From Prevotella sp. MGM1 (GTDB taxonomy: Bacteria > Bacteroidota > Bacteroidia > Bacteroidales > Bacteroidaceae), in NCBI RefSeq assembly GCF_002933775.1, contig NZ_BEWV01000221.1, forward strand, positions 62,001-126,000: 64,000 nt of DNA. Direction: 5' to 3'. Of the stretch, positions 11,254 through 57,336 are shown piece by piece. Under the pieces are notes generated by a model, which had not been told where the DNA came from, searched no databases, and saw only the letters and a list, made by a program, of their open reading frames with translations. Position numbers and translations under genes: made by a program. Positions within the stretch are counted from its first letter, which is position 1, and every line of letters starts with the position of its first letter.

Positions 11254-11294
11254 TATATGGTTGTTTTTTGTGCTTCAACGGGATACTTTTTGCC

Positions 11295-11361
11295 TTGCAT
11301 TTAGGCGCTCGTTACAATGCGTTTAGCGTCTAAACGCATTGTAACGAGCGCCTAAATGCAA
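11295..11361. repeat. Perfect 32-bp inverted repeat with 3-base loop (mosaic palindrome family)
   Basis: The arm 11295-11326 is the exact reverse complement of 11330-11361, around a CGT loop. It contains the sub-motifs GCATTTAGGCGCTCGTT and GCGTTTAGCGTC. Close relatives of these sub-motifs recur in the intergenic palindromes at 38857-38929 and 52819-52859. There is no T-run, so a simple terminator role is unlikely. Confidence 0.9.
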
Positions 11362-11660
11362 GATGACGGCATACCGGTTGCGGCAATGCCTATGGAAGGA
11401 TATTCGAGAAAGAGAAGTTTATCAAAAAACAAAGGCTGTAAGTGGCTTTGTTGTATGCTTTTGCATAAATATTCATATTTATTTTGTTGATTGTCGTTGG
11501 GAATAAAGTTTACAAATAACATTATTTTATATGTTTAACCGTTTTTAACATGGGGGGGGTGGCAAGCATTTTTATTTTATGTATCTTTGTGCCGTTCGAT
11601 GGTAAATACTTAATATTTAAGATAATATAAATATTTAAGACAAAATAAATAATTAAGGTT

Positions 11661-12071
11661 ATGAAGCAGAAATTGTTAGTGCTGTTTGCTATTTTGCTTG
11701 TAGGCATAGGCGCAAATGCCCAAAAAGCCGTACTCCCTGACACTGTAAGTGGCAAGATTCATTGTGTTCCAGACGAAAAACCTTCTTATCCCGGTGGTTC
11801 GGGGTTGCTGTTTAAATATCTCTCCACCCAGATCCGCTATCCGTCGGATGCGGTGAAAAATAAGATTGAGGGGCGGGTGATTGTCACTTTTTTTGTGGAA
11901 AAAGACGGTTCGGTCGATGATGTGGCAGTGTTAAAGAGTGTATGCCCTTCGCTTGATAAAGAAGCCGTGCGTGTGGTGAAAAATATGGCGAAGTGGAATC
12001 CCGGAAAGCATAAAGGAGTGCCGGTGAGAGTTAAATACACGTTGCCGATAAGCTTCAGGCTTCCGCGATGA
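11661..12071 (+). CDS. Exported protein consisting mostly of a TonB C-terminal domain
   Basis: The 136-residue product has a cleavable-looking signal peptide (MKQKLLVLFAILLVGIGANA, then Q) and then essentially one domain, a TonB C-terminal fold (about residues 45-134), with the family pattern YPSDAVKNKIEGRVIVTFFVEKD split across two strands, GSVDDVAVLKS, and WNPGKHKGVPVRVKYTLPI. Unlike true TonB it has no retained N-terminal membrane anchor, no proline-rich spacer and no adjacent ExbB/ExbD, so a periplasmic binding or accessory role is more likely than energy transduction. A -7 element TATCTTTG (11582-11589) precedes it, but the usual -33 place is occupied by a run of eight G (11552-11559). 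The cobalamin riboswitch transcript on the other strand points toward its 3' end. Confidence 0.8.
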   Translation: MKQKLLVLFAILLVGIGANAQKAVLPDTVSGKIHCVPDEKPSYPGGSGLLFKYLSTQIRYPSDAVKNKIEGRVIVTFFVEKDGSVDDVAVLKSVCPSLDKEAVRVVKNMAKWNPGKHKGVPVRVKYTLPISFRLPR

Positions 12072-12089
12072 CAGTACGGGCATGGAAAA

Positions 12090-12130
12090 AACAAAAGGGT
12101 GTGGCCCGGCCTCCCGGTCCGACCACACCC
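12090..12130 (-). terminator. Terminator closing the cobalamin-riboswitch transcript
   Basis: GGGTGTGG (12097-12104) pairs with CCACACCC (12123-12130). Read on the minus strand the stem is followed by TTTTGTTTTTT, a good T-tract; read on the plus strand no T-run follows. It therefore ends a leftward transcript, the one that begins with the riboswitch, before it reaches the TonB-domain gene. It may also help stop the plus-strand message. Confidence 0.65.
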
Positions 12131-12324
12131 GCAAAACAACTTATATAATAATAATTCATAGTGTGCGGACAATAATTAGAGGTGCGTATGATGTTGTCTT
12201 TATCACATGCGCCATGAAACAAGAGCCGCCGAAATACCGGACAGAATGCCTGTGTCCGGGTTTATACAATCATAGACAATGAATGCCGCATGTGTCCTTA
12301 CTCCGAGGAACAACGGCTTTTGTT

Positions 12325-12500
12325 TCTTATCTGGTCGAGGCAGGTCTTCAGACTTTGTTCCAATCTCATGTTCCTTCCCATTTCCTTTCTTGAAAACAGT
12401 GGACTATTGCATGAAATCCATAATGAAACTTACTGCTGCGGGACAGTTGGAGACTCTCACTCCATTCCCTTTTAATCGCTGTTATGCGAGCCTTAACGTT
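12325..12500 (-). promoter_or_regulatory. Cobalamin (B12) riboswitch with no recognisable downstream gene
   Basis: On the minus strand, in order: TTAAAAGGGAAT (around 12463-12474), a short stem GGA..TCC enclosing GTGAGAGTC, then CTGTCCCGCAGCAGTAA (about 12431-12448), ACTG and GGGAAGG in the peripheral arm, and the B12 box AGTCTGAAGACCTGCC (12339-12354). This is the conserved core of the cobalamin riboswitch, in the right order and spacing. A -7 element TACATTTG (12503-12510) lies just upstream. Downstream there is no B12 transport or synthesis gene, only a 9-codon ORF (12262-12291, with GGAGTAAGG before its ATG), a 19-codon ORF (12156-12215), a hairpin (12237-12259) and the terminator at 12090-12130. 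Confidence 0.92.
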
Positions 12501-12590
12501 TGCAAATGTAGCTATTCTCTTTCAAAGTAAAGACAACCTTACGATTAAAATGATGGTGATTAACATTATTTAAATAAGTTTTTTAGGGAG

Positions 12591-48048: not shown

Positions 48049-49206
48049 TTATGATAAGAAACCGAGCAGGGTACCTGCCGCCACAGCCGAACCGATTACA
48101 CCGGCTACATTCGGACCCATGGCGTGCATGAGCAGGAAGTTGTGCCGGTCATATTCAAGTCCGAGGTTGTTGCTTATTCGTGCGCTCATAGGTACGGCCG
48201 AGACACCGGCGTTTCCGATAAGCGGGTTGAGTTTTTTATCTTGCGGCAGGAACAAGTTCATGAACTTGACGAACAGCACTCCGCTTGCCGTCGCAACCAT
48301 GAATGCGCATGCTCCGATGAGGAAGATGAACAATGTGTTCACGGTAAGGAACTCGCTGGCCTGTGTCGAGCATCCCACTGTCAGACCGAGCAGCATCACC
48401 ACGATGTCGTTCAGAGCCGAACCGGCAGTTTTTGCGAGGCGTGTCGTCTTGCCGGATTCTTTCAGCAGATTGCCGAAGAAGAGCATGCCGAGCAACGGCA
48501 GACCCGAAGGTACGATGAATGTGGTGAGCAGGAGTCCGATGATAGGGAAGAGGATACGCTCTGTCTGGCTCACCTGTCGAGCCGGTTTCATGCGTATCAC
48601 GCGCTCTTTCTTTGTCGTGAGCAGGCGCATGAGCGGCGGTTGGATCAGTGGAACGAGTGCCATGTATGAATATGCGCACACCGCAATGGCTCCCATTAGG
48701 TTCGGGCTAAGTTTTGACGACAGGAAGATGGCCGTAGGTCCGTCCGCACCTCCGATGATTGCGATGCCCGCGGCTTGGTTTGGTTCGAAGCCGAGCGCGA
48801 GCGCAACCATGTATGCTCCGAATATACCGAACTGTGCGGCCGCACCTATAAGCACCAGTTTCGGGTTGGCAATGAGTGCCGAGAAGTCTGTCATGGCACC
48901 TATCCCGAGGAATACCAGAGGCGGATACCAGCCCATGCGGACACCTTGGTAGAAGATGTTGAGCACCGAATTGTCTTCATACAGGCCTATTTCGAGACCG
49001 GCGTCGGTGCGGAAAGGTATGTTTCCGAGTATTATTCCCAATCCGATGGGTATGAGAAGCAGCGGCTCAAAGTCTTTCTTGATGGCAAGATAGATGAGTG
49101 CCGCACCCACAGCGATCATGATCAGATTACCCGCAGTGGCGTTTACGAAGCCTGTGTAGGTAAGGAACTCGTTGAAGTTCTCAATCAAAAAATCAGTAAA
49201 TCCCAT
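48049..49206 (-). CDS. Na+-translocating decarboxylase, beta subunit
   Basis: The 385-residue inner-membrane protein is of the OadB/MmdB/GcdB family, which couples decarboxylation of carboxybiotin to export of Na+. It has about nine to eleven membrane segments and the conserved GGADGPTAIFLSSKL and PLIQPPLMRLLTTKKER regions. In this context methylmalonyl-CoA is the likely substrate (MmdB), since mutA and mutB are nearby; oxaloacetate or glutaconyl-CoA cannot be ruled out. The gene starts 7 bases after the biotin-carrier gene and ends the operon. Confidence 0.9.
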   Translation of the reverse strand: MGFTDFLIENFNEFLTYTGFVNATAGNLIMIAVGAALIYLAIKKDFEPLLLIPIGLGIILGNIPFRTDAGLEIGLYEDNSVLNIFYQGVRMGWYPPLVFLGIGAMTDFSALIANPKLVLIGAAAQFGIFGAYMVALALGFEPNQAAGIAIIGGADGPTAIFLSSKLSPNLMGAIAVCAYSYMALVPLIQPPLMRLLTTKKERVIRMKPARQVSQTERILFPIIGLLLTTFIVPSGLPLLGMLFFGNLLKESGKTTRLAKTAGSALNDIVVMLLGLTVGCSTQASEFLTVNTLFIFLIGACAFMVATASGVLFVKFMNLFLPQDKKLNPLIGNAGVSAVPMSARISNNLGLEYDRHNFLLMHAMGPNVAGVIGSAVAAGTLLGFLS

Positions 49207-49213
49207 ATCGTCA

Positions 49214-49678
49214 TCATGCTATTGTGAGCAGCACGGCACCTTCCATGACCGAGTCGCCCTGATTAACGGATATTGAAGTCACGGTACCTGAGTTCTCGCT
49301 TTCGATGTTGTTCTGCATCTTCATCGCTTCGAGGATTACCACAGTGTCTCCCGCATTGACCTTGTCTCCCACTTTTACGCATACGGACACAATCGTTCCT
49401 GGCAGTGGTGCCGTCGTGGGGGTTCCTTCACCGGCTTGTGCCGCGGGTTGTGTGGGTCTTACGGAAGCCGTTGTCGTTGTCTTGGACTGGGCTGGAGCCG
49501 GTTTGGGCGCTTCCACCTTTGCGTGTGAAATGGCGTGGGCCGGATTTATGGGGTGTTTCAGTTCCACCTCAAATGATACCCCGTTAACTTTGACGGTGGC
49601 AACGTTTCCCACCAATTCTTCTATCTCAACGTCGTAGTCTACGCCTTGTACCTTATATTGATATTTATTCTGGTTCAT
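49214..49678 (-). CDS. Biotin carboxyl carrier subunit of the Na+-pumping decarboxylase
   Basis: The 154-residue protein has an N-terminal beta domain (1-45), an alanine/proline-rich flexible linker (about 57-92) and a biotinyl domain with the biotinylation site EAMKMQN (K120). It carries CO2 as carboxybiotin from the carboxyltransferase to the membrane beta subunit. It lies 26 bases downstream of the OadG-like gene and 7 bases upstream of the beta subunit gene, clearly in one operon. Confidence 0.93.
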   Translation of the reverse strand: MNQNKYQYKVQGVDYDVEIEELVGNVATVKVNGVSFEVELKHPINPAHAISHAKVEAPKPAPAQSKTTTTASVRPTQPAAQAGEGTPTTAPLPGTIVSVCVKVGDKVNAGDTVVILEAMKMQNNIESENSGTVTSISVNQGDSVMEGAVLLTIA

Positions 49679-49704: not shown

Positions 49705-50679
49705 TTATTCGTGAAATTGTGTCATTTGTATGTACTCGACATTCCAGTCTGTGTGTTTGGGCTTGATGGTGATCACACCGCTTTCCATATCATGTATGTT
49801 GTTCTGATACTCATGCAGAGCCATTGATATCACGGCGATGTATATCTCCTTGTCTATACCCTTTGTCTTGAGGCCGTCTTGAAGGATTACGCTTGTCTTG
49901 TGTCCTATCTCGGTCGTCTTCTCCACCGTTTTCACCCCGACTTTCAGCGGTTGCATATTGGCCACTTTCTTGGCCGTGTTCCTGTGGCGCATGAAGAGTC
50001 CGAAAAGAGTGAATACAATAAATAGCAATGCCAGACAAGAAAAAACAATGCTCATGGCGAGCACCGAAATGCCGAATCCGTGCGGATCCTCCCTTTTCAG
50101 TTTGGCTATTTTCGACTCACTGACCTTGATATAGTTGGATATGCCCGGAGTGACCGCGTCTTCAGGTTTGACCTGCCACATCCTCACGCCTTTATCCTGT
50201 CGTGCGTACGACTTGTTCTCGGCAAGAGCCGGCACGGTCACCGAGTCGAGCAGTTCGGTGGCGTTTCCGTTGTAGAGGGCTATCCATACTGGCTTTCCCG
50301 GTTCTATTTGCAGCGGCAAGTAGAATGAGCCTTGCGCCGGGTTGCTGTTGCAGAAGAACAGCAGGTGCTGTTGCCCGCCGATGTTTGTGCGCGGTTCCCC
50401 GTTGGGGATTATGCACATGCGCTTTACCCTTTCAGGCACGCTCATGTTCTTGTCGAGCACGGAGCGGTCTGTGGTGAGATACATGCCGCGTATGTTATAC
50501 GTAGTGTGCGACACGTTGGCAATCTCTATCCATGGACTGCAATGTCCGTATTCGTCCTGCAAACCGGCTGTGTTGTCGGTCACGACCTCGTTCAGTCTGA
50601 TGCTCTTCTCTATTTGTCCGAGCATCACAGACGGACCGGCAGTCAGCAACAAACCTAACAGTAATCCGAATTTATTCAT
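49705..50679 (-). CDS. OadG-type subunit with N-terminal lamin-tail domain
   Basis: The 324-residue protein has a signal peptide (1-21), a lamin-tail-like beta domain (about 25-165: IRLNEVVTDN, SPWIEIANVSHTTYNIRGMY), a membrane helix (about 205-232, ISVLAMSIVFSCLALLFIVF) and a short cytoplasmic OadG-like C-terminus. OadG/MmdD subunits assemble the decarboxylase complex. The exported lamin-tail domain is a Bacteroidales addition whose role is unknown. It is the first of the three decarboxylase genes; the carboxyltransferase (alpha) gene that often accompanies them is missing here. Confidence 0.85.
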   Translation of the reverse strand: MNKFGLLLGLLLTAGPSVMLGQIEKSIRLNEVVTDNTAGLQDEYGHCSPWIEIANVSHTTYNIRGMYLTTDRSVLDKNMSVPERVKRMCIIPNGEPRTNIGGQQHLLFFCNSNPAQGSFYLPLQIEPGKPVWIALYNGNATELLDSVTVPALAENKSYARQDKGVRMWQVKPEDAVTPGISNYIKVSESKIAKLKREDPHGFGISVLAMSIVFSCLALLFIVFTLFGLFMRHRNTAKKVANMQPLKVGVKTVEKTTEIGHKTSVILQDGLKTKGIDKEIYIAVISMALHEYQNNIHDMESGVITIKPKHTDWNVEYIQMTQFHE

Positions 50680-50782
50680 GTTTGTTTTAAATTGTTATTA
50701 TATAAGTTATTGGTAAGATTTTCTTTCCAGGTGTGTATTCATGCCGTCTTTGATTTTGCCGCCATGTATATGCACGGCGAAG

Positions 50783-53106: not shown

Positions 53107-53172
53107 CATGTCGTATCACGTTTTAAATAAATATTGTGTAACTTATATAATAAACATATATTAATACGAACT

Positions 53173-55026
53173 ATGTCAAACAATAGAGAGAAACTCTTTA
53201 CCGAGTTTGCGGCTCCCACCACCCAAGAGTGGTTGGATAAAATCCAGGTGGATTTGAAAGGTGCCGACTTCAATAAGAAACTGGTATGGAGAACAAACGA
53301 AGGTTTTAACGTACAACCGTTCTATCGCAGGGAAGATGTATTGAAGTTGAAGACTCCCGATGCTCTGCCTGGTGAGTTCCCGTTTGTACGCGGCAACAAG
53401 AAAAACGACAATTCATGGTATGTGCGCCAGAACATCATCGCCGACAATGCGGCAGAAGCCAATGCCAAGGCTCTCGACATCCTTGATAAAGGTGTCGACT
53501 CGCTCGGTTTCAGGTTTCACGGCGACAAGGTAAACGCGGAGTTTGTAGAGACCCTTCTCGACGGAATCCGTTGCGACATCGTGGAAGTCAGCTTCCGCAC
53601 TTGTCAGCGTCATGTACTCGAACTGGCCGACATTCTCACTGCATATTTCGAGAAAAAAGGCTACGACAAGGAGAAGATCGTCGGTGGCATAGGCTTCGAC
53701 CCGATCGAGAAGATGGTGGTCGGAGGCAAAGACACCACACCTCTGCTTGCCACGGCTCCCAGACTCGTGGAGAAGTTGAAAGATTATCCCCACATGCGTT
53801 GTATCATGGTGCACTCGGAGGCTCTGAACAACTCTGGTGCATACATCGTGCAGGAGTTGGGATATGCACTGGCCTGGGGTAATGAATACATGCATCAGCT
53901 CGTAGAGGCGGGAGTAGACGTGGATTTGGCGGCAAGGAGCATCAAATTCTACATGGGTATATCGGAAAACTATTTCATGGAGATTGCCAAGTTCCGTGCG
54001 GCACGTCTGCTGTGGGCCGAAATCGTGAAGCAGTATGAGCCTAAGTGCGACTGCTCTTGCAAGATGATTGTCAATGCCGCCACAACATCCTATAACAAGA
54101 CAATGTTCGACAGCTATGTCAACCTGTTGCGTACACAGACGGAGGCGATGAGCGCCGCTTTGGGAGGTGTTCACTCCATCGTGGTTACTCCGTTCAACGC
54201 CGTATACGAGAAACCGACCGAGTTCTCAGAGCGTATAGCCCGTAACCAGCAGTTGCTTTTGAAAGAAGAGAGCCACTTCGACAAGGTCGTAGACCCGTCG
54301 GCGGGTTCTTACTACATAGAGGAGCTGACGCACTCACTGGCCGATGTGGCATGGAGACAGTTCCTCAAAATAGAGGAAGAGGGAGGATTCCTCGCCGCTG
54401 TGAAAGCCGGTACGGTACAGGACGACATCAATGCCACAAATGACAAGCGCCATGCCGACGCGGCAAAGCGCAAGGAGTTCATTCTCGGCACAAACCAGTT
54501 CCCCAACTTCACCGAGACGGCCGAAGGCAAGGAGCCGCTGGCATGCTCTTGCTGCTGCGGCCATAAGGAGGAGGCTCCGTTCAAGTCGATAAACTCGACA
54601 CGTATGGCAGCCGATTTCGAGCAGCTTCGTCTCGCCACCGAGAAGAGCGGAAAGACTCCTGTCGCATTCATGCTCACCATCGGAAATCTGGCTTGGCGCC
54701 AGGCTCGCGCGCAGTTCTCATCCAATTTCCTGGCTTGTGCGGGCTATAAGATAATAGACAATCTCGGTTTCGATACGGTCGAGGAGGGTGTAGACGCTGC
54801 GTTGAAGGCAGGTGCCGACATAGTCGTTCTCTGTTCGAGCGATGATGAATACGCGACATATTCCGTTCCCGCATTCAACTATCTCGCCAATCGTGCCATG
54901 TTCATTGTGGCCGGTGCTCCCGCCTGCATGGACGAACTGAAAGCTGCCGGCATAGAGAATTTTGTTCATGTTAAGTGCAATGTGCTCGAAACGCTGAAAG
55001 AATATAACGGTAAACTGGGAATTTAA
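53173..55026 (+). CDS. mutA: Methylmalonyl-CoA mutase, small subunit
   Basis: The 617-residue subunit pairs with MutB to interconvert succinyl-CoA and methylmalonyl-CoA. It has the mutase TIM-barrel (about 45-420, WRTNEGFNVQPFYRREDV) and a C-terminal flavodoxin-like domain (about 485-617) that lacks the cobalamin-binding DxHxxG, as expected for the small chain. Two cysteine clusters, CDCSC near residue 295 and CSCCCGH near 458, sit in the barrel edge and linker. The frame opens 13 codons earlier; the Met at 53173 (MSNNREKLFTEF) fits homologues. Confidence 0.93.
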   Translation: MSNNREKLFTEFAAPTTQEWLDKIQVDLKGADFNKKLVWRTNEGFNVQPFYRREDVLKLKTPDALPGEFPFVRGNKKNDNSWYVRQNIIADNAAEANAKALDILDKGVDSLGFRFHGDKVNAEFVETLLDGIRCDIVEVSFRTCQRHVLELADILTAYFEKKGYDKEKIVGGIGFDPIEKMVVGGKDTTPLLATAPRLVEKLKDYPHMRCIMVHSEALNNSGAYIVQELGYALAWGNEYMHQLVEAGVDVDLAARSIKFYMGISENYFMEIAKFRAARLLWAEIVKQYEPKCDCSCKMIVNAATTSYNKTMFDSYVNLLRTQTEAMSAALGGVHSIVVTPFNAVYEKPTEFSERIARNQQLLLKEESHFDKVVDPSAGSYYIEELTHSLADVAWRQFLKIEEEGGFLAAVKAGTVQDDINATNDKRHADAAKRKEFILGTNQFPNFTETAEGKEPLACSCCCGHKEEAPFKSINSTRMAADFEQLRLATEKSGKTPVAFMLTIGNLAWRQARAQFSSNFLACAGYKIIDNLGFDTVEEGVDAALKAGADIVVLCSSDDEYATYSVPAFNYLANRAMFIVAGAPACMDELKAAGIENFVHVKCNVLETLKEYNGKLGI

Positions 55027-55188: not shown

Positions 55189-57336
55189 ATGAGAAAGAAT
55201 TTTAAAGATATAGATATTTACGCCGGAATAAAGGCGACCGACGGCGCCGATTGGCAGAAAGCCAACGGTATCGCCTCCAACTGGAAAACACCGGAGCATA
55301 TCGAGGTTAAGCCTGTTTATACAAAAGAGGATTTGGAAGGCATGGAGCACCTTGACTACACGGCCGGAATACCGCCTTTCTTGCGCGGTCCGTATTCAAT
55401 GATGTATCCTTTCCGTCCGTGGACGATCCGTCAGTATGCCGGATTCTCGACAGCAGAGGAGAGCAACGCTTTCTATCGCCGTAACCTTGCGTCGGGACAG
55501 AAAGGGCTTTCCGTGGCGTTCGACCTGCCGACACACCGTGGTTACGACCCGGATAACGAACGTGTGGTGGGCGATGTGGGTAAGGCCGGCGTGTCTATCT
55601 GCAACGAGGAGAACATGAAAGTGCTTTTCGACGGTATTCCGCTCAACAAGATGTCAGTGTCGATGACCATGAACGGAGCGGTGCTTCCTATCCTTGCGTT
55701 CTATATCGTGGCAGGATTGGAGCAGGGGGCAAAGCTCGAAGAGATGGCCGGAACAATACAGAACGACATACTCAAAGAGTTCATGGTGCGCAACACATAT
55801 ATATATCCGCCTGCGTTCTCAATGAAAATCATCGCCGATATATTCGAGTACACGTCACAGAACATGCCGAAGTTCAACTCAATATCAATCTCCGGATACC
55901 ACATGCAGGAGGCGGGAGCCACCGCGGATATCGAGTTGGCATATACTCTTGCGGACGGTATGGACTATATCCGTGCAGGAGTGAACGCAGGTATCGATAT
56001 CGACGCGTTTGCGCCGCGTCTCTCTTTCTTCTGGGCCATCGGTGTAAATCACTTCATGGAGATTGCCAAGATGCGTGCCGGACGTCTGCTGTGGGCAAAG
56101 ATTGTCAAAAGTTTCGGAGCCAAGAACCCGAAATCGCTCGCATTGCGCACACACTCCCAGACTTCGGGTTGGTCGCTTACGGAGCAGGACCCGTTCAACA
56201 ACGTAGGCCGTACGTGTATAGAGGCCATGGCCGCCGTGCTCGGACATACGCAGTCTCTGCATACGAACGCGCTCGATGAGGCCATCGCCCTGCCTACAGA
56301 CTTCTCGGCACGTATAGCCCGCAACACTCAGATTTATATCCAGAATGAGACCAAGGTGTGCAAGCAGATAGACCCGTGGGCCGGTTCTTACTATGTGGAG
56401 AGCCTCACGAACGAGCTTGTCCACAAGGCATGGGAGCATATTCAGGAGATAGAGAAACTCGGAGGTATGGCCAAAGCCATCGAGACAGGAGTGCCGAAGA
56501 TGCGTATCGAGGAGGCGGCAGCCCGCACCCAGGCCCGTATCGATAGCGGAGTGCAGACCATTGTTGGTACAAACAAGTACCGTCTTGAGCATGAGGATCC
56601 CATCGACATTCTTGAAGTCGACAACACGGCGGTGCGCAAGCAGCAGGAAGAGAGCCTTGCAAAGGTACGTTCTTCACGCGACGAGGAGGCATGCCGCAAG
56701 GCGCTTGCCGACCTTACCGAGTGTGTCCGTACTGGAAACGGCAACCTGTTGGCGCATGCCATCGAGTGTGCCAAGTTGCGTTGTACTCTCGGGGAGATAA
56801 GTGATGCCTGCGAGGAGATCGTGGGTCGTTATAAAGCAGTAATCAGAACAATATCAGGAGTGTATTCATCGGAAAGTAAAAACGACAGTGACTTTGAGCT
56901 GGCATGCCGGCTCACGGAGGAGTTTGCCAAGCAAGAGGGTCGCCGTCCTCGTATCTTCGTGGCTAAGATGGGTCAGGACGGACACGACCGCGGTGCGAAA
57001 GTGGTGGCTACAGGCTATGCCGACTGCGGCTTTGACGTAGACATGGGTCCGCTGTTCCAGACCCCGGCGGAGGCAGCCCGTGAGGCTGTAGAGAACGACG
57101 TGCACGTTGTAGGCGTGTCGTCACTTGCCGCCGGCCATAAGACGCTTGTGCCGCAGCTCATTGAAGAGTTGAAGAAAGCCGGCCGAGAGGATATCATGGT
57201 GATTGCGGGCGGTGTAATACCTGCTCAGGATTATGATTTCCTGTACAAGGCGGGAGTAGCGGCAATCTTCGGCCCGGGCACTTCGGTTGCCAAGGCCGCG
57301 GTAGAGATGATGAAGATATTGCTCGACAAAGAATAA
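55189..57336 (+). CDS. mutB: Methylmalonyl-CoA mutase, large (cobalamin-binding) subunit
   Basis: The 715-residue subunit holds the active site and adenosylcobalamin. The N-terminal barrel contains [20 protein letters not shown] and the C-terminal domain (about 585-715) has the cobalamin motif [10 protein letters not shown] (near 594-603, with the axial histidine). It is typical in length. It lies 162 bases after mutA. In the propionate pathway its product is decarboxylated by the Na+ pump encoded on the other side of the intergenic region. A terminator follows at 57359-57409. Confidence 0.96.

Follow-up and report, generated by a model that had tools for sequence, protein, structure and literature searches.

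A gene-less cobalamin riboswitch in Prevotella likely controls a trans-acting, B12-sparing small RNA

A cobalamin riboswitch without a gene behind it in the genome of Prevotella sp. MGM1 most likely controls a trans-acting, B12-sparing small RNA (sRNA) that represses the mutA and oadG-mmdC-mmdB messages; we put the probability of this reading, which is inferred from sequence without data on the transcript, its 3' end or its response to B12, at roughly 0.85. The locus lies in a stretch of 64,000 nucleotides that was analyzed as a whole (the window). In the proposed mechanism, it is a self-contained unit in which a promoter and the cobalamin riboswitch are followed by a variable stretch of about 160 nt and by a conserved sRNA module. 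The riboswitch, the promoter box, the module and its terminator are shown in the sequence; the way in which the riboswitch would control an RNA without a gene is inferred. When B12 is scarce, the riboswitch would be ON and the RNA would be made, which is inferred only. A segment of the module would then pair with the 5' leaders of mutA and oadG-mmdC-mmdB just upstream of the start codons; here, complementarity and covariation are shown, and biochemical data are lacking. Pairing is inferred to repress, by blocking translation and/or destabilizing the mRNAs. When B12 is plentiful, the riboswitch would shut off the RNA, and the enzymes leading from succinate to propionate would be expressed.

The initial annotation, made without database searches, had claimed a cobalamin riboswitch on the minus strand, and this held. 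The RF00174 match at 12510-12322 (-) reached 82.9 bits (gathering threshold, 31.5) over model positions 1 to 189, the full length, and was the only match at the gathering threshold in the window and the only RF00174 match in the genome (2.95 Mb, a draft of 225 contigs, 92% complete). Membership of RF00174 is therefore met by score and the riboswitch is genuine; binding of a corrinoid is inferred from sequence. The element TACATTTG at its 5' end is a putative promoter -7 box, and hairpins resembling the small one at 12295-12309 also trail the riboswitch in several relatives, as judged by eye. Also upheld was the claim that a terminator, no B12 gene and only ORFs of 9 and 19 codons lie behind the riboswitch: no B12 gene was found 3' of it and no plausible gene on the same strand for about 1.5 kb. 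The only minus-strand ORF of at least 80 amino acids within about 1.5 kb (111 codons, TTG start, 12172-11837) crosses the terminator, runs antisense over the neighboring gene and is probably spurious. The 9-codon ORF (12291-12262) was, by eye, not conserved in G054 or G052, two relatives in which the unit is likewise linked to a ROK gene. The terminator (12130-12086) is a GC-rich hairpin followed by a T tract to about 12086; a simple terminator scan missed the stem at 12130-12097, which was included by its fold and a covariance model. The unit is flanked upstream by a ROK-family gene on the same strand and downstream by a convergent gene for a TonB_C protein (11661-12071, +). Between the latter and the next gene is a perfect inverted repeat (11294-11362) with 33-nt arms and a 3-nt loop. 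The coordinates are compiled in Table 1.

Table 1. Features of the riboswitch unit and of its predicted targets (window coordinates)
Feature	Position	Strand	Basis
Cobalamin riboswitch aptamer	12322..12510	-	RF00174, 82.9 bits, E 6.5e-19
Putative promoter -7 box TACATTTG	12510-12503	-	By sequence; overlaps aptamer 5' end
Small P13-like hairpin TCCT-cggagta-AGGA, directly 3' of aptamer	12295..12309	-	Sequence
9-codon ORF	12262..12291	-	Sequence
19-codon ORF	12215-12156	-	Sequence
Conserved module: AU-rich pairing segment and GNRA-loop terminator	12088..12161	-	R1 covariance match
Pairing segment GAAUUAUUAUUAUAUAAGUUG	12137..12157	-	Includes perfect complement of AACTTATATAATAA (mutA and oadG leaders)
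Terminator hairpin with GGGA loop, and T tract	12086..12130 (stem 12130-12097)	-	Sequence, fold, covariance model
Predicted sRNA site, mutA leader, 20-33 nt before ATG	53140..53153	+	Perfect 14-nt complement; own-segment duplex -13.7 kcal/mol
mutA, methylmalonyl-CoA mutase small subunit, predicted target	53173..55026	+	PF01642, E 4.1e-152
mutB, methylmalonyl-CoA mutase large subunit with B12-binding domain	55189..57336	+	PF01642 and PF02310
Predicted sRNA site, oadG leader, 16-29 nt before ATG	50695..50708	-	Perfect 14-nt complement; duplex of -18.1 kcal/mol with own segment, which ranks 1st of 18
oadG-like subunit (OAD_gamma), first gene of mmd operon, predicted target	49705..50679	-	PF04277, E 3.8e-12
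mmdC-like biotin carrier	49214..49678	-	ORF with EAMKMQN biotin-attachment sequence (by eye)
mmdB-like decarboxylase beta subunit	48049..49206	-	ORF and operon order; name inferred from sequence and gene order in PMC11575231

With the TonB_C gene just past the terminator, read-through could make a B12-controlled antisense RNA to this gene, an alternative that the initial annotation had raised. A terminator-like hairpin and a T tract precede the gene, and the gene-less units of relatives have other neighbors; therefore, this reading is unnecessary and can be all but excluded.

RF00174 was present in 55 of 60 genomes of the genus, the window genome (G000) included, and the surroundings of 109 RF00174 places outside the window, 1 of them below the family cutoff, were compared. 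Behind many of the gene-less riboswitches we found ACGTGTATTATTATATAAGT together with a GNRA-loop terminator. From 60 hand-chosen copies out of 125 distinct ones we built a covariance model (R1); the window copy was not used, nor were copies inside cbiK-like genes and others that lack a clear GNRA hairpin. The GNRA-loop hairpin was present in 60 of the 60 aligned copies, and conservation covers this one hairpin and its flank; the pairs that RNAalifold gave inside the 20-mer, used in R1, cannot be read as structure because these columns are nearly invariant. R1 matched the window copy with 34.8 bits (E of 2.4e-4 per genome and 1.9e-5 in 237 kb). The match lies 161 nt behind the aptamer and was the only one in G000 at an E value of ≤0.01. 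The E values are only rough, and the search of the genus was run with stricter filters, which lose weak matches. At an E value of ≤5.4e-4, a line drawn after the match list was known, 29 matches were found in 25 of the 60 genomes, G000 included, with one copy in 21 genomes and two in 4. All 29 lie downstream of a cobalamin riboswitch: 27 have an RF00174 match on the same strand at most 4.3 kb upstream, and for the remaining 2, located close to contig ends in G013, a B12 box lies 133 to 135 nt upstream. Relaxing the limit to 0.01 gave 47 matches in 32 genomes; only one of the 18 weaker than 5.4e-4 (G032:C61, 0.0012, cbiK-like) lay behind a listed riboswitch, and the others likely resemble chance. 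In a family-wide search, R1 had matches at an E value of ≤0.001 in 6 of 151 genomes, 4 of which belong to genus g1 (window genome included); the 2 in other genera were weak.

The exact 20-mer ACGTGTATTATTATATAAGT was found in at least 120 stretches of GTDB genomes and in no viral contig. By title, 80 of these loci comprised 73 from Prevotella/Prevotellaceae/Xylanibacter, 5 from Bacteroidales, 1 from Bacteroidaceae and 1 from Clostridium. A B12 box was located within 300 nt upstream at 89 of the 120 loci, 40 of them without and 49 with a same-strand ORF of at least 100 amino acids within 250 nt of the motif. Another 14 had the box 0.3 to 5 kb upstream, and 17 had none in the available stretch, with less than 3 kb of upstream sequence in 8 cases. 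Three of the 17 (L201, L219 and L295) have no hairpin and are apparently unrelated to the module; by eye, the match in L219 is apparently a complementary site before an oadG-like gene. The terminator-ended, gene-less unit thus recurs in many Prevotella genomes, twice behind the same ROK gene (G054 and G052). The initial annotation had suggested that here, in Bacteroidota, a B12 riboswitch may control a regulatory RNA; this comparative evidence supports the idea, without transcript data.

Its other alternative, a deletion remnant in which a btuB-type gene was lost and the riboswitch leader and terminator were left behind, is not supported. Many loci do have a long ORF right behind the module, which looks btuB-like from its length and by eye, so such a deletion could yield an orphan. 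Against this, the gene-less unit recurs (40 of the 120 exact-motif loci), the window module is the only one in its genome, and the pairing segment is conserved and covaries with mutA (see below); we consider a remnant very unlikely.

A module that is nearly single copy points to an RNA acting in trans, and complements of the module were therefore sought. The 14-nt sequence AACTTATATAATAA occurs at three places in the window: in the module (complement strand), in the mutA leader and in the oadG leader, the predicted targets being about 38 and 41 kb away from the riboswitch unit. Its 12-nt core occurs at five places in the genome as sequenced, including these three; one of the other two is inside a gene and one is 220 nt before another ORF, and neither has the 14-mer. 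The initial annotation had named no target, and both likely targets sit in the same window. Behind oadG in the window come a biotin-carrier-like and an mmdB-like ORF; this gene order has been described next to mutAB in Xylanibacter ruminicola (PMC11575231), and EAMKMQN in the carrier is, by eye, a biotin-attachment motif. The predicted sites have median positions of about -27 to -6 (mutA) and -27 to -8 (oadG) relative to the ATG, which fits a block of translation initiation. In two further loci, a 12-nt complement lies 27 nt before the start of a lutA-like ORF (L373, G028) and 32 nt before that of a lactate-permease-like ORF (L379, G044), both named by eye; an extension of the regulon to lactate use is possible.

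Pairing was analyzed across the genus by comparing genomes with the module (module+; 27 genomes, i.e., the 25 with matches at ≤5.4e-4 plus G032 and G019) and without it. G019 was first counted as module negative in the mutA test and was moved once a degenerate copy had been found, and the variant segment of G035 was added after the first mutA test. We excluded the mutA of G051 (wrong ORF), G013 (no mutA start in the sequence) and G034 (no mutA), and added the mutA leaders of G055, G056 and G057 by pattern. One segment was used for two-copy genomes, and start codons were set by a simple rule. Of the segments used, 27 of 27 were confirmed in the genomic DNA. G034 (L118) has the riboswitch-module unit, and no mutA or oadG match was found in it. 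With the consensus segment, the mutA leader ranked within the best 1% of a background of 166 AT-rich leaders in 22 of 24 module+ genomes versus 2 of 9 module-negative ones (Fisher P = 2.6e-4, uncorrected for relatedness). The two misses among the former, G049 and G052, gave -20.8 and -15.3 kcal/mol with their own segments; the module-negative genomes with sites were G020 (92% complete) and G057 (65%), and G004 was borderline (-12.2). In ten further motif-locus genomes, chosen before their mutA was seen, 10 of 10 leaders paired at -14.6 to -18.9; these were picked from the 80 listed loci, some by name, and overlap with the first 60 genomes is possible. For oadG, 13 of 19 module+ genomes versus 0 of 11 module-negative ones were in the best 1% (Fisher P = 3.2e-4). 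The misses were G019, G025, G036, G051, G052 and the window genome itself, whose oadG leader reached -12.4 with the consensus and -18.1 with its own segment; the other five pair poorly. Nine more oadG regions were covered by a pattern scan only; a site was present in 3 of the 7 from module+ genomes and in neither of the 2 from module-negative ones. Two sets of control leaders, pduO and mmdA-like, showed no pairing in any of 30 genomes each; the second is called mmdA-like because all TIGR01117 matches were below the curated cutoff of that family. pduO was accordingly rejected as a target. Pairing between module and targets is above background and mostly absent where the module is absent, and conserved complementarity to the start regions of distant mRNAs, one of our criteria for an sRNA that pairs in trans, is met.

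Since both the segment and the leaders are AU rich, the complementarity could be mere AU-rich leader sequence without any sRNA action. Indeed, AU-rich leaders can match AU-rich motifs, and -13.5 was reached by 0.6% of the 166 AT-rich leaders and by 1.2% of all 726. Against this, shuffled segments were worse than the own segment at P ≤ 0.01 in 23 of 23 mutA and 12 of 18 oadG cases, and own segments beat those of other genomes on average: none of 20,000 permutations reached the observed value for mutA (P = 5e-5, 23 genomes, relatedness uncorrected), and P was 0.035 for oadG (18 genomes). Compensating changes were seen as well. In G052, an A-to-G change in the sRNA goes with U to C in mutA (own segment, -15.3; consensus, -9.6), and the deletion variant of G049 pairs at -20.8 compared with -11.8 for the consensus; with this 3-nt deletion, CGAAGUGU of G036 and G049 can pair with ACAUUUCG adjoining the ATG. 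Core and target are both changed in G019 (own, -16.0; its segment averages -9.1 on other targets), but this case is weak because the G051 segment does as well on G019 mutA (-16.3). On the mutA permutation test and the G052 and G049 cases, the criterion of covariation between sRNA and target is met. The fit is not uniform: the window's own segment ranked 19th of 23 on its own mutA, below most others, and 1st of 18 on its own oadG, and that of G035 also ranked 19th of 23 on its own mutA. Predicted accessibility of the segment was moderate (0.55 in the window, 0.17 in G040) and supports pairing only weakly. Together with the negative control genes and agreeing expression data from a relative (see below), these results make the AU-rich explanation very unlikely; the controls lessen the worry about chance matches but do not remove it, and the species are not independent.

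The surroundings of the module vary: it is found without a gene, with btuB-like or cobalamin-biosynthesis-like genes, at operon ends, and in a cbiK-like signal peptide (names by eye). In L239 it is followed by CbiH-like, CobQ-like and CbiB-like ORFs, also named by eye. In L105, L106, L116, L218 and L274 it lies within the part of a cbiK-like gene that encodes the signal peptide; there a hairpin is kept, but a T tract is missing. A divergent ECF-sigma-like gene (197 to 198 amino acids, by eye) adjoins the gene-less riboswitch in L082, L085, L095, L103, L104, L231 and L256, most of which have an rpe-like gene (name by eye) beyond it; an upstream ECF-sigma-like gene is a neighbor in some loci only. 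Autonomy of the sRNA unit is inferred from the promoter box and terminator in the sequence, without transcript data, and some relatives have the module inside an operon.

Other roles for the motif were considered. A short peptide was rejected. Although the motif translates as VYYYIS at some loci, its frame differs at others and its nucleotide sequence is almost constant; selection therefore appears to act on nucleotides. Self-pairing of the motif between copies gave only -5.6 kcal/mol, and a shared factor or sponge was downgraded in view of the low copy number. The module could also be a decoy of the Rli55/EutX kind, with some unidentified protein or RNA as its partner, or a terminator through which B12 acts on neighboring genes. 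In favor of this are its presence before btuB-like and cobalamin-biosynthesis-like genes and inside cbiK-like genes, and the GNRA-loop hairpin in all aligned copies. Against it, there is usually one copy per genome, while several mRNAs would be expected to carry a shared binding site; the downstream genes vary or are absent; and the complement sits in the mutA and oadG leaders and covaries. A decoy or attenuator is thus very unlikely. A bolder version of the sRNA reading, toward which we lean by a small margin, is that of a portable sRNA cassette that has riboswitch control as its constant feature and moves between host transcripts as a B12-sparing regulon. Its carriers would be a stand-alone RNA, a leader before a btuB-like gene, positions between or behind operon genes and the inside of the cbiK-like signal-peptide sequence; it would be (nearly) single copy, downstream of a B12 riboswitch and coevolving with the mutA and oadG leaders.

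Published expression data bear on the predicted regulation. Propionate production by rumen Xylanibacter (formerly Prevotella) depends on B12. In a 2024 study of X. ruminicola KHP1 (PMC11575231), cobalamin raised mutA/mutB RNA and protein (log2, 1.3 to 1.7) and marginally raised mmdB/mmdC/oadG RNA (log2 below 0.8), and genes of the mmdA locus were unchanged or slightly down. KHP1 has four riboswitches, none of them near mutA/mutB or mmdB/mmdC/oadG, and many of the most changed genes are near riboswitches. The authors state that the mechanism of the mutAB/mmd rise is not known, favor posttranslational control and left a Listeria-like antisense RNA mechanism uninvestigated (PMC11575231). A metagenome-assembled genome of X. 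ruminicola (L212) has a unit of riboswitch and module without a gene, and its mutA and oadG both have a site (-17.7 and -15.8, respectively). The KHP1 response matches the sRNA prediction in direction and gene set, with the reservation that the site evidence comes from L212 and not from the KHP1 genome; the effect is modest, and pduO, which has no site and is raised by B12 in KHP1 (PMC11575231), does not fit. If true, the sRNA reading offers a specific, testable answer to the KHP1 question: an sRNA from a gene-less riboswitch would pair with just these leaders, those of mutA and oadG. It would also warn against taking riboswitches without a neighboring gene for remnants. In Veillonella, a cobalamin riboswitch is located upstream of a mutase gene (PMC7160235), a cis arrangement unlike that in the window.

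Listeria and Enterococcus are known to have B12 riboswitches that precede regulatory RNAs (AspocR, Rli55, EutX); no report of an RNA like the one proposed here was found in the literature searched, which left out most subscription papers. As in AspocR of Listeria (Mellin 2013; PMC8079631), a B12 riboswitch would precede a regulatory RNA made at low B12, and a B12-dependent pathway would be fully expressed only with its cofactor. AspocR, 1,400 nt long, is antisense to a single regulator gene, pocR, whereas here a short module would act in trans on distant enzyme mRNAs in a member of the Bacteroidota; the predicted RNA does not overlap a target gene on the opposite strand, as the AspocR type would require, since the terminator precedes the convergent gene. 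Rli55 and EutX are likewise short, gene-less regulatory RNAs under a B12 riboswitch. They act on EutV by trapping this ANTAR protein; the module has a conserved base-pairing segment instead, a contrast drawn without a search for ANTAR motifs or proteins. SreA, which derives from a SAM riboswitch and acts on prfA, also pairs with a 5' UTR in trans (PMC8079631), but there the terminated riboswitch RNA itself is the sRNA. The unit does not fit this type: the complement of the targets is in the module, which lies 3' of the aptamer and can be part of different transcripts. RyhB-type iron-sparing sRNAs, which are switched by Fur, repress enzymes that need the scarce cofactor. The predicted RNA would likewise be induced by cofactor shortage and repress enzymes that need the cofactor, with a riboswitch in place of the Fur protein as the switch; if true, a riboswitch in Bacteroidota would control an sRNA that acts in trans, and this RNA would be a B12 counterpart of the iron-sparing sRNAs. 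It would differ from the known cases in the separate conserved pairing module, its varied host transcripts, the distant enzyme mRNAs as predicted targets and the occurrence in Bacteroidota.
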